Below, piece after piece: positions 8,943 through 35,054 of a DNA stretch of 35,163 nucleotides. Within the stretch, counting starts at the first letter, position 1; every line of letters begins with the position of its first letter. The notes under the pieces were generated by a model. That model searched no databases and had not been told where the DNA came from. It worked only from the letters and a program-made list of their open reading frames with translations. The position numbers and the translations under genes were made by a program. The DNA comes from a virus, in IMG/VR virus record IMGVR_UViG_3300020203_000005, positions 1-35,163 of that record. One strand, 5' to 3'.

Positions 8943-9125
8943 ATGACTATCTACGGAAATAACCTCTCTATTACAGAAATGAAAAACCTATTAAATGCTT
9001 ATAAAGATATCGTCCCCCGACTAAATGAACAATTAAAAAGTGCTTACCGACAAGGATATATAGACGGTAGACGGTATAGCGGGACTTTATTAAGTGATAT
9101 TCCCGATGAAGAACTGACCTTTTGA
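8943..9125 (+). CDS. Hypothetical helical protein (60 aa)
   Basis: I choose ATG 8943 (MTIYGNNLSITEMKNLL) over an upstream TTG because the promoter -10 occupies the upstream codons. The product is two helices with a polar YRQGYIDGRRYSG turn and an acidic end (DIPDEELTF). The stop TGA 9123-9125 lies inside the TTGACA of the next promoter. The 3' end of this gene is duplicated 360 bases downstream as part of a 28-bp direct repeat. Confidence 0.55.
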   Translation: MTIYGNNLSITEMKNLLNAYKDIVPRLNEQLKSAYRQGYIDGRRYSGTLLSDIPDEELTF

Positions 9126-9138
9126 CATAAGGCACAAA
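9111..9138 (+). repeat. 28-bp direct repeat, copy 1 (contains a -35)
   Basis: Identical to 9471-9498. It begins GAACTGACCTTTTGACATAA and includes the end of the upstream coding sequence plus TTGACA. The two copies flank the tRNA-Lys-like gene. Confidence 0.9.
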
Positions 9139-9151
9139 TGTGAGTTATAAT
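9122..9151 (+). promoter_or_regulatory. Strong sigma70-like promoter
   Basis: TTGACA 9122-9127, an 18-base spacer and TATAAT 9146-9151 are both perfect hexamers. The transcript would start near 9158 and run rightward through the long stem at 9168-9291, antisense to the tRNA-Lys-like gene, to the terminator at 9331. Confidence 0.75.
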
Positions 9152-9167
9152 AAAGTGGTAATTATTT

Positions 9168-9291
9168 GAGACGTAAGTAGAGAAAGTAATTAAGGTGGAC
9201 CTGACCAGTGCTGACCTGGCTCACCCGGCTTAAAAGGACGGTGTGCTACCGTTACACTACAGGCCCCATTTACTTCCTCTACCCACGTCTC
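9168..9291 (+). ncRNA. Long stem-closed RNA (antisense to tRNA-like core)
   Basis: Paired blocks are GAGACGT/ACGTCTC (9168/9285), GTAGAG/CTCTAC (9177/9277), AAGTAA/TTACTT (9184/9270) and CCTG/CAGG, giving about 25 base pairs that close a branched core. The strong promoter reads this strand. The stem is symmetric and could equally flank the minus-strand tRNA-like transcript. Either it is an independent structured phage RNA or the flank of a tRNA unit. Confidence 0.55.
9194..9266 (-). tRNA. tRNA-Lys(UUU)-like gene
   Basis: Read on the minus strand from 9266: acceptor GGGCCTG pairs with CAGGTCC (one G-U); then U8 A9; D arm GTGT-AACGGTA-GCAC with A14, GG and A21; anticodon arm CCGTC-CTTTTAA-GCCGG with U33, anticodon UUU and A37 (one mismatch, T30-C40); a four-base variable region; T arm GCCAG-GTCAGCA-CTGGT. 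The discriminator is A followed by CC. The T loop lacks TTCGA, so it may be degenerate or a tRNA mimic. No clear promoter is seen on its strand. Confidence 0.5.
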
Positions 9292-9470: not shown

Positions 9471-9498
9471 GAACTGACCTTTTGACATAAGGCACAAA
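9471..9498 (+). repeat. 28-bp direct repeat, copy 2
   Basis: Exact copy of 9111-9138, 360 bases downstream, again supplying TTGACA. Here it is followed by a weaker -10 (TATAAG, 9505-9510) that overlaps a TGTGTATAA DnaA-box-like site at 9501-9509. Confidence 0.9.
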
Positions 9499-10619: not shown

Positions 10620-10648
10620 AAAAGCCACCAATTGGTGGCTTTTTTTAA
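10620..10648. terminator. Bidirectional terminator
   Basis: The perfect palindromic hairpin AAGCCACCAATTGGTGGCTT has a T run on the plus side and A residues that become a U run on the minus side. It separates the convergent small genes. Confidence 0.8.
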
Positions 10649-10818
10649 TCCTGCTCCTTACTGTTATATTCATCTTCGACATAATCATCAGCGTTTTCTT
10701 CTTCCCAGATTTCTTCACCCTCCTCGTCTTCTTTCATTGTTCCGCCATGAGTGTCACTAAACATATCATCAAAAGGATTTGTATTTCCGCTTGCCTGAAA
10801 AGGTAAACCGTTTTTCAT
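10645..10818 (-). CDS. Acidic small protein (57 aa)
   Basis: I start at ATG 10818 (MKNGLPFQASGNTNPF); longer forms would run through the promoter. The second half is strongly acidic (KEDEEGEEIWEEENADDYVE). Upstream, TGTTATACT forms an extended -10 ten bases before the ATG, so the leader is only a few bases. Acidic composition suggests a DNA-mimic or protein-binding role, but no family is recognised. Confidence 0.5.
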   Translation of the reverse strand: MKNGLPFQASGNTNPFDDMFSDTHGGTMKEDEEGEEIWEEENADDYVEDEYNSKEQD

Positions 10819-10887
10819 TTGTACTATAAGTATAACATGACAGAATAGAAAAATAGCAAGGACTGGGGACAACGAAAGCGTTAGTCT

Positions 10888-10919
10888 ACCGGGAAATGGG
10901 CAAGGGAGTACTTCCCGGT
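10888..10919 (-). other. Hairpin ACCGGGAA/TTCCCGGT
   Basis: A perfect eight-base-pair stem around a 16-base loop, at the downstream end of the hairpin array. No U run follows on the minus strand, so it may be a stability element rather than a terminator. Confidence 0.5.
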
Positions 10920-10929
10920 AATATATAGA

Positions 10930-10983
10930 GACAACAAGAAACCACCCAGGTTCGCATTGTTAAGAGGCGTGGGTGGTGTTGAT
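10930..10983 (-). ncRNA. Putative small RNA unit 4
   Basis: The promoter -10 TATAAT lies at 10995-10990. The predicted transcript from about 10983 forms ACCACCCA/TGGGTGGT (10941-10948 with 10970-10977) followed by TTCTTGTTG. Its length is about 50 bases and it has no coding potential. Confidence 0.45.
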
Positions 10984-10989
10984 GTCTAC

Positions 10990-11039
10990 ATTATAACAGA
11001 AAGCCCCACCATGCCATAGCAGAGGGTGAGACCATATAG
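10990..11039 (-). ncRNA. Putative small RNA unit 3 ending in a terminator fused to a promoter
   Basis: It is transcribed from the -10 TATACT at 11051-11046. CTCACC pairs with GGTGGG around an inner TGC-TATG-GCA hairpin, then CTTTCTGTT as U-rich tail. The tail runs directly into TATAAT, the next -10 (extended TGTTATAAT). Confidence 0.5.
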
Positions 11040-11045
11040 TTTTAT

Positions 11046-11096
11046 AGTATAACAGAAAGCCGACCCATGCACAAGTGCGATGGGTCGGCGTTGGTA
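11046..11096 (-). ncRNA. Putative small RNA unit 2 ending in a terminator fused to a promoter
   Basis: The hairpin CCGACCCAT-GCAC / GTGC-ATGGGTCGG (11060-11088; 13 base pairs) is followed by CTTTCTGTTATACT. The last six bases are the next -10, and TTGTGC inside the hairpin loop is its -35 at a 17-base spacing. The -10 for this unit is TATACT at 11108-11103. Confidence 0.55.
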
Positions 11097-11102
11097 TTTT
11101 AT

Positions 11103-11253
11103 AGTATACGCTAGTCATTTGTAGATGTGATACTAGCGCACTGACGAATGGAGACGAAACTCCTTTAAGCAAGTTCTATGAGGTCAGACTCCTTCCTTGC
11201 TGAGCCATCGCAAAACTTACTACAATAAGTGGATGGCTTATGTATATATTATA
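11103..11253 (-). ncRNA. Putative RNA unit 1 of the array
   Basis: The -10 TATAAT (11253-11248) follows the late-operon terminator. The transcript region holds GCCATC/GATGGC and ends in the hairpin CGCTAGT/ACTAGCG (11109-11138), which directly abuts the next -10 TATACT. No convincing protein is encoded; the only short frames lack normal composition. Confidence 0.4.
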
Positions 11254-11285
11254 CACTAAAAAACCACACCTCTCCAAGTGTGGCT
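11248..11285 (-). terminator. Late-operon terminator fused to a promoter
   Basis: On the minus strand CCACAC/GTGTGG (11064-type design, here 11264-11283) is followed by TTTTTTAG and then TGTATAAT. TTGGAG in the hairpin loop is a possible -35 at an 18-base spacing. It ends the leftward late operon below the 54-residue membrane protein. Confidence 0.65.
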
Positions 11286-11326
11286 CTTTATGGTTAAGTA
11301 CCTTTTTAGAACTTATATAGTATACA

Positions 11327-11491
11327 CTACTTACGGAATCCAGACGGTGAGATACCCCCAGCTCGGTAACGTCCATACAACGTCACTACAGCTACAGCTA
11401 CAACTAAGATAGCGTTCACTACTGTTTCTGCGTTATCTACTCCTAAGTATGTTAGGACTGCGACTCCAACGTATGTTAATGAAAATGGCAT
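11327..11491 (-). CDS. Holin-like small membrane protein (54 aa)
   Basis: ATG 11489-11491 to TAG 11327-11329. Two hydrophobic stretches are visible, PFSLTYVGVAVLTYLGV at residues 2-18 and AILVVAVAVVTLYGRY at about 27-42, followed by a basic, Gly/Ser-rich tail (RAGGISPSGFRK). It is the last gene of the late operon, just downstream of the endolysin. A two-helix holin or pinholin is the likely role; there is also another membrane protein upstream at 12550. Confidence 0.6.
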   Translation of the reverse strand: MPFSLTYVGVAVLTYLGVDNAETVVNAILVVAVAVVTLYGRYRAGGISPSGFRK

Positions 11492-13269: not shown

Positions 13270-14148
13270 CTAATATAACATACAGCGACGATGGGCGATG
13301 GCTGGGTGTAGGGGACGGAAGGACACGCCACGACCTGTACTTGTAGGTAGAGTACCTGGGTTAGTATATTTAGTACCAAAACCAGCAGACCAAGGGTAAG
13401 CTGTGACAAAGGGGGATGAATCGTGTGCTACCGCAATATCGTTACCATTGGGAGAGAAGGACACGCCACGACCTATACCTGTAGGTAGAGTACCTGGGTT
13501 AGTGTACTTTGCACCAAAACCACTACTCCACGGGTAAGCAGTGATGAAAGGAGAGGTAGAGTGCGCTACACCAATATCGTTACCACTTGGAGAGAAGGAC
13601 ACGCCAATACCTGTACCTGTAGGTAGAGTACCTGGGTCAGTATATTTAGCACCAAAACCAGCAGACCAAGGGTAAGCTGTAATGAAAGGAGAGGTAGAGT
13701 GCGCTACAGCAATATCGTTACCACTTGGAGAGAAGGACACACTGTTTCCGCTATTAGGAGGCAATGTACCTGGGTTAGTATATTTAGTACCAAAACCAGC
13801 AGACCAAGGGTAAGCTGTAATGAAAGGAGAGGTAGAGTGCGCTACAGCAATATCGTTACCACTTGGAGAGAAGGATACATCATATCCAATACTAGCAGGT
13901 AGAGTACCTGGGTTAGTGTACTTTGCACCAAAACCACTACTCCACGGGTAAGCAGTGATGCAAGGAGAGGTAGAGTGCGCTACAGCAATATCGTTACCAT
14001 TGGGAGAGAAGGACACGCCACGACCTGTACTTGTAGGTAGAGTACCTGGGTCAGTATATTTAGCACCAAAACCAGCAGACCAAGGGTAAGCTGTAATGAA
14101 AGGAGAGGTAGGGTGCGCTACAGCAATATCGTTACCACTTGGAGGGTG
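13270..14148 (-). CDS. Beta-propeller adhesin of six near-identical 46-residue repeats
   Basis: Each unit has the form SFSPSGNDIAVAHSTSPFI then TAYPWS, GFG.KYTNPGTLP. Repeat starts are spaced exactly 138 bases apart (14143, 14005, 13867, 13729, 13591, 13453), with a partial closing unit at 13315. The pattern is of WD40/YVTN-like propeller blades found in phage structural proteins. The frame is open from 14148 with no ATG; the upstream gene overlaps it in a different frame. A virion surface or receptor-binding role is likely. Confidence 0.6.
   Translation of the reverse strand, partial: HPPSGNDIAVAHPTSPFITAYPWSAGFGAKYTDPGTLPTSTGRGVSFSPNGNDIAVAHSTSPCITAYPWSSGFGAKYTNPGTLPASIGYDVSFSPSGNDIAVAHSTSPFITAYPWSAGFGTKYTNPGTLPPNSGNSVSFSPSGNDIAVAHSTSPFITAYPWSAGFGAKYTDPGTLPTGTGIGVSFSPSGNDIGVAHSTSPFITAYPWSSGFGAKYTNPGTLPTGIGRGVSFSPNGNDIAVAHDSSPFVTAYPWSAGFGTKYTNPGTLPTSTGRGVSFRPLHPAIAHRRCMLY
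13312..14146 (-). repeat. 138-bp tandem repeats
   Basis: Six tandem copies, nearly identical in DNA, differ mainly in the GFG(T/A)KY and LP(T/A)... positions. High DNA identity implies recent expansion or gene conversion, and makes short-read assembly of the copy number unreliable. Confidence 0.9.
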
Positions 14149-35020: not shown

Positions 35021-35054
35021 ATTATACAAACAAAAAAGCCCCGAATGGGCTTTG
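35021..35054 (-). terminator. Terminator fused to the winged-helix promoter
   Basis: On the minus strand AAAGCCC-ATTC-GGGGCTTT is followed by TTTGTTTG and then TATAAT (35026-35021). The U-rich tail of the terminator merges into the -10 of the next gene, as in the 10.9-11.3 kb array. Confidence 0.65.

Follow-up and report, generated by a model that had tools for sequence, protein, structure and literature searches.

A series of putative small-RNA units behind the lysis genes

We analysed a 35,163-nt stretch of the IMG/VR record IMGVR_UViG_3300020203_000005, which we call the window; it comes from a tailed phage for which we found no DNA similarity to cultured phages. Downstream of an endolysin-like gene (M23-like peptidase, with PHROG endolysin matches) and of a 54-aa hydrophobic ORF, the minus strand carries five TATA[AC]T boxes arranged serially over 11324-10990, at 11324, 11253, 11108, 11051 and 10995. 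The last four each have a stable hairpin at most 14 nt ahead, whereas the first has none. The features of this region are as follows, with folding energies and z-scores where calculated.

11327..11491, minus strand: small hydrophobic ORF of 54 aa that closes the lysis region (an unrelated 54-aa ORF lies at the equivalent place in the related phage G003)
11319..11324, minus strand: unit 1 promoter, -10 box TATACT within GTGTATACTATA, no hairpin ahead
11257..11289, minus strand: hairpin 1, strong intrinsic terminator, CCACAC/GTGTGG followed by TTTTTT (-20.2 kcal/mol, z -4.5)
11248..11253, minus strand: unit 2 -10 box TATAAT, immediately 3' of the U-tail of hairpin 1; predicted start ~11241
11106..11139, minus strand: hairpin 2, GCGCTAGT/ACTAGCGT, without U-tail, abutting the unit 3 -10 box (-18.3 kcal/mol, z -2.3)
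11103..11108, minus strand: unit 3 -10 box TATACT; predicted start ~11096
11059..11089, minus strand: hairpin 3, GCCGACCCAT..ATGGGTCGGC, weak tail TTTCTGTT, no Rfam family (-23.3 kcal/mol, z -5.6)
11046..11054, minus strand: unit 4 extended -10 box TGTTATACT; predicted start ~11039
11002..11033, minus strand: hairpin 4, GGTCTCACC..GGTGGGGCT, weak tail TTTCTGTT (-17.3 kcal/mol, z -1.9)
10990..10998, minus strand: unit 5 (abiF RNA) extended -10 box TGTTATAAT, kept in G003 (TGTTATACT) and L043 (TGTTATAGT); predicted start ~10983
10941..10976, minus strand: orphan abiF RNA hairpin, RF03085 (-16.8 kcal/mol, z -3.4)
10887..10920, minus strand: another stable hairpin 3' of the abiF RNA, TACCGGGAA..TTCCCGGTA, without U-tail (by folding)
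10645..10818, minus strand: 57-aa acidic ORF, preceded by TGTTATACT at 10837-10829 (matched in position by a short acidic ORF in G003)

Two further ORFs, of 66 aa (11176-11376) and 70 aa (10960-11172), extend across the array; as both cross hairpins and promoters, we took them as chance frames.

An earlier note on this DNA had described hairpins in series, each running into a -10 element. All the sequences that it quoted are present, namely TTTTTTAGTGTATAAT at 11263-11248, CGCTAGT/ACTAGCG abutting TATACT (11108-11103), and the 14-mer GGCTTTCTGTTATA at 11061-11048 (followed by CT) and again at 11005-10992 (followed by AT). The serial arrangement itself holds for four hairpin-backed boxes and is unlikely to be fortuitous. 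None of 2000 dinucleotide shuffles of 10860-11340 contained more than two hairpin-backed boxes, against four observed, and none reproduced the 14-mer repeat. Ranked by the stability of the upstream hairpin, the four boxes of the array come 1st, 2nd, 5th and 8th among the 50 TATA[AC]T boxes of the window. The base rate over 1.86 Mb of fetched loci is 6% (237 of 3877 boxes), and in these loci no phage outside this species has four hairpin-backed boxes in series. Together, the shuffles, the ranks and the base rate indicate that the array is real.

The reading of these hairpins as terminators stands for hairpin 1, with its strong U-tract, but not for all the others: hairpins 3 and 4 have weak tails (UUUCUGUUAU) and hairpin 2 has no U-tail. 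Hairpin 2 (11139-11106) is not a terminator but an operator-like element or the 3' stem of an RNA. As for the -35 hexamers, they are poor (TTGTGC at 17 nt spacing and ATGGCA at 16 nt), and there is no general excess of sigma-70-like pairs across the array region, in which TGTTATA[AC]T is present twice. Given the poor -35 hexamers, these two boxes would act as extended -10 promoters. At the level of sequence, there is good support for short RNA units in series, with a putative -10 box for every unit right after the preceding hairpin.

Other features were observed elsewhere in the genome. A 28-bp direct repeat containing TTGACA lies on the plus strand at 9111-9138 and 9471-9498, and its first copy is part of a perfect TTGACA-18-TATAAT promoter (9122-9151, plus strand), probably an early promoter. 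The window (9196-9266, minus strand) and the related phage L022 (2882-2978, minus strand) each harbour a tRNA-like gene that scores ~42 bits with Rfam and is not called by ARAGORN; these are possibly odd or interrupted tRNAs. Finally, tandem repeats of ~138 bp encoding SFSPNGNDIAVAHSTSPFITAYPWS units (13312-14144, minus strand) vary among close relatives.

The last unit encodes an orphan abiF RNA

A cmscan analysis of the whole window identified 10976-10941 as an abiF RNA (Rfam RF03085; 42.5 bits, E 1.1e-4). The match covers the full length of the model (1-37), and the curated gathering cut-off of the family is 37 bits. The family loop, GCCUCUUAACAAUGC, is intact. Aligned with other viral copies, the hairpin shows the same asymmetric shape with compensatory changes in the stem (98% paired, covariation 0.842). 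The last unit thus belongs to a known RNA family with a likely function, an identity that had been missed in the earlier note. We also scored the other hairpins of the array with our model R1, filters off. They reached at most 10.8 bits, the score of a plain terminator stem, and were rejected as abiF-like; hairpin 3 (11089-11059) scores 6.3 bits.

The abiF RNAs characterised so far are antitoxins of AbiF. This HEPN RNase is regarded as ancestral to Cas13 (PMC12737573). RCd22, an abiF RNA, neutralises it in trans through direct binding, for which the stem is required (PMC12373285). RCd22 carries two motifs and the RNA of the window only one. The structure of PbAbiF with its RNA has been solved (PDB 8VZ6), and the complex contains one RNA per AbiF monomer (PMC12737573); by analogy, a single motif is plausible in the window. 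AbiF toxin-antitoxin modules have an Abi_2/AbiF gene directly downstream of the RNA. The window has none there, and no Abi_2 gene was found in this phage's record or in those of its relatives G003 and G001. The RNA is therefore an orphan antitoxin RNA within a phage genome, in the manner of the pseudo-ToxI mimic.

Conservation of the hairpin/-10 junction in related phages

The phage G003 (IMGVR_UViG_3300020201_000279) has a 99% identical terminase and a different endolysin region. By blastn, its similarity to the array region is limited to 81 bases, which contain TGTTATACT, CATCAACACC and the abiF hairpin. The stem has changed from CCACCC/GGGTGG to CCCGCC/GGCGGG, which replaces A-U by C-G and C-G by G-C and is thus compensatory, and a strong hairpin again stands immediately ahead of TGTTATACT. 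In the distant relative L438, recognizable by colinear weak protein similarity, a terminator, TTTTGTTATAGT and an abiF hairpin follow one another at another genome position. These two cases indicate that the abiF RNA and its hairpin/-10 junction move as one, in an array that is otherwise variable. The whole four-unit array was found only in the identical phage G001, G003 retaining only the last junction, and a search for further relatives via the tail protein yielded no others than G001 and G003 with this region in common.

The earlier note had gone further and proposed a relay, in which stopping one transcript exposes the start of the next. A causal effect of this kind, in which an ordered chain of RNAs arises because termination at each hairpin favours initiation at the following -10 box, seems to us very unlikely. 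It is true that four hairpin/-10 junctions in series are improbable by chance, that one junction is retained in G003 and one in L438, and that L200 also has two units serially, with a tRNA cluster ~230 bp beyond the second. Moreover, relatives that keep a hairpin and lose the -10 box, named beforehand as evidence against the relay, are not what we found, as G003 retains, at one junction, the hairpin, TGTTATACT and the next hairpin. However, among the four junction hairpins, numbers 3 and 4 would terminate only weakly and hairpin 2 is no terminator at all, the junction kept in G003 is a single one, and hairpins over the -35 element are not enriched at strong promoters (2/35, versus 360/3622 control sites). 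Since sigma-70 promoters on double-stranded DNA need no upstream termination, a relay is unnecessary; adjoining terminators and promoters suffice, and the proposal is not supported.

In three groups of unrelated phages (L173, L164 and L193), TTGACC or TTGACA sits in a hairpin loop and TGTTATA[AC]T directly follows the CTTTC tail. We considered whether promoters that hold their -35 element in a terminator loop form a general class and rejected the idea, as there was no enrichment over control sites outside the loci picked by pattern. The fused terminator-promoter does recur (L173, L164, L193 and L200), but its layout suggests mere packing.

Orphan abiF RNAs in viruses and bacterial chromosomes

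Two loop-pattern scans of viral contigs yielded 56 loci and at least 120 loci (80 of these examined), with ~100 distinct stem-bearing abiF sequences among the viral matches listed; the conservation of the loop is partly built in by the search pattern. The stems covary in both sets. The 28 distinct hairpins of the first set have 98% paired cells and a covariation of 0.842, versus 0.171 in shuffles, and the 48 distinct hairpins among the matches listed in the second set reach 0.469, versus 0.119. Of 37 viral records in the first set, only G037, where the module is canonical with two motifs, has an Abi_2 gene, and among the matches listed in the second set one record in 50 has it, bearing in mind that many viral records are fragments and that the Abi_2 model could miss diverged toxins.

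Named phages gave the same picture. Using blast with two abiF hairpins followed by Rfam scoring of whole records, we identified nine, and none has an Abi_2 gene: Acj61 (58 bits), Wanda (39.7 bits), SNW-1 (33.3 bits), phiSHEF4 (31.1 bits), Javan129 (30.1 bits), SBSphiJ2 and BSP18 (~25 bits, under the cut-off), and P59 and SA11 (weak scores). Members of Nitunavirus and Silviavirus are among these phages. In the chromosomal control, which covered one loop subtype and was sorted with an AbiF profile of our own making and a basic check of the stem, AbiF is adjacent at ~20 of 45 usable loci. The contrast between viruses and chromosomes suggests that it is the RNA as such that phages retain. Nevertheless, the other ~25 of the 45 chromosomal loci are orphans too, some of them decayed, and orphan status alone is thus no proof of a decoy role.

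Such chromosomal orphans, some with broken stems (Peptoniphilus loci), lend some credit to the idea that the RNA of the window is decaying cargo, the remnant of a complete abiF module that lost its toxin gene. We regard this as improbable, because the phages have intact stems that covary across many lineages, the promoter is retained with the hairpin, and the toxin gene is absent from named phages of many genera.

A more serious alternative, although still an unlikely one in our judgement, is that the locus is an ordinary compact intergenic region, with lysis-operon and short-leader terminators followed by promoters of downstream genes such as that of the 57-aa acidic ORF. The abiF hairpin would then be a convenient terminator or a stable 3' end, without action on AbiF. 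Hairpin 1 is indeed a textbook terminator, and phages usually place a promoter after a terminator; this phage has a second fused pair at 35021-35028 (minus strand), where the terminator GCCCATTCGGGGCTTTTTTG runs straight into TTTGTATAAT. Likewise, the abiF hairpin of Acj61 lies between the end of a gene, which it directly follows, and the late-promoter-like box TTTTGTATAAATA. However, a mere terminator would not retain the GCCUCUNAACNAUGC loop and the asymmetric inner stem while its outer stem drifts in a compensatory manner. In addition, many copies are devoid of U-rich tails, and many are found within tRNA clusters.

Since HEPN nucleases such as Cas13a cleave tRNAs (PMC12373285), it is a reasonable inference that islands of non-coding RNAs and tRNAs have a common role against tRNA-cleaving defences. 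The many orphan copies inside phage tRNA clusters could also mean that the target inhibited by the abiF RNA is not AbiF but another HEPN RNase, such as an F13 or Cas13e-like protein or a further toxin that cleaves tRNAs. Cas13e derives from AbiF and retains antitoxin-like control by its RNA (PMC12737573). Yet the loop is the one typical of abiF RNAs, and we give this possibility very little weight.

Several viral and bacterial loci deserve mention in their own right. In the Bacillus phages P59 and BSP18, the abiF RNA adjoins or is near a skipping-rope RNA and tRNA clusters; skipping-rope, abiF or tRNA features lie at 1423-1492 and 1501-1534 in L229 and at 1501-1524 and 2408-2478 in L231. Near the abiF RNA of L031 lies a borderline DUF3800-IX RNA. 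Such islands may be collections of several antitoxin-like RNAs. Two Candidatus Moranbacteria contigs (L089 and L131) harbour orphan abiF RNAs with a promoter and a terminator; in these Patescibacteria genomes, no Abi_2 gene was found. In L121, the abiF RNA is beside an AbiF gene on the opposite strand. Lastly, a region of the lactococcal phage sk1 is reported to protect phage 712 from AbiF, in work cited in PMC12737573; sk1 was ruled out as an experimental precedent, as it has no abiF RNA.

A putative decoy antitoxin

The RNA of the window shares its hairpin architecture, a conserved loop with an outer and an inner stem, with RF03085, with RCd22 of the Clostridioides difficile phi027 prophage (PMC12373285) and with PbAbiF-AbiFr (PDB 8VZ6). 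Like RCd22, which acts in trans on AbiF (PMC12373285), it is predicted to be a short promoter-proximal sRNA. It differs from RCd22 in that it has no toxin gene and one motif instead of two, and its promoter is fused to the upstream hairpin. An abiF sRNA has been found by Rfam search in a lytic phage, the cyanophage S-CREM1; the authors described an sRNA whose role was unconfirmed and did not present it as a mimic of an orphan antitoxin, and it is not part of an array (PMC9964418).

There are two precedents for RNA mimicry. Phage-encoded ToxI mimics defeat ToxIN, and the pseudo-ToxI of phage PhiTE is likewise a phage-borne mimic of a host antitoxin RNA without its toxin, proposed to hold the toxin off in infection (PMC3475682). 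In our case the toxin would be the HEPN protein AbiF and not ToxN, and the RNAs are single hairpins and not repeat arrays (compare PMC3475682). Racr RNA anti-CRISPRs likewise reproduce a host defence RNA as single copies in viruses, in many cases right behind a promoter (PMC10651486). Racrs mimic CRISPR repeats and misassemble Cas proteins (PMC10651486), whereas the RNA of the window would mimic an antitoxin.

We propose that the region behind the lysis genes encodes four to five small-RNA units placed head to tail, each transcribed from its own sigma-70-type promoter, whose fusion to the 3' hairpin of the preceding unit would save space. The last unit, with its predicted start at ~10983, would yield an orphan abiF RNA of ~50 nt. 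During infection, this RNA would bind host AbiF, a HEPN RNase that belongs to a type III-like toxin-antitoxin defence made up of RNA and protein. By replacing or supplementing the host antitoxin RNA, it would keep the toxin off and prevent abortive infection, and expression from a phage promoter would keep AbiF occupied once host transcription shuts down. To judge from family membership, conservation and gene context, we consider that the abiF unit probably is such a decoy antitoxin, although with considerable room for doubt. Units 1-4 look like short transcripts and might be leaders, terminators or decoys for other systems.

More generally, orphan abiF RNAs might represent a widespread, so far unrecognised RNA counter-defence of many unrelated phages that neutralises AbiF-type HEPN RNases, a proposal to which we give an even chance. 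They would occur singly or in islands of non-coding RNAs and tRNAs, and in this phage family the decoy gene would share its place behind hairpin-fused promoters with further small RNAs, themselves possibly decoys for different RNA-controlled toxins. If this is true, a tiny AbiF antidote is common to T4-like Acinetobacter phages and to phages of Bacillus, Staphylococcus, Enterococcus and mycobacteria, which would explain the presence of the RNA without the toxin and supply natural AbiF inhibitors. The defence target of AbiF would become directly testable with laboratory phages, and the RNA mimicry exemplified by pseudo-ToxI and Racr would extend to another defence family.
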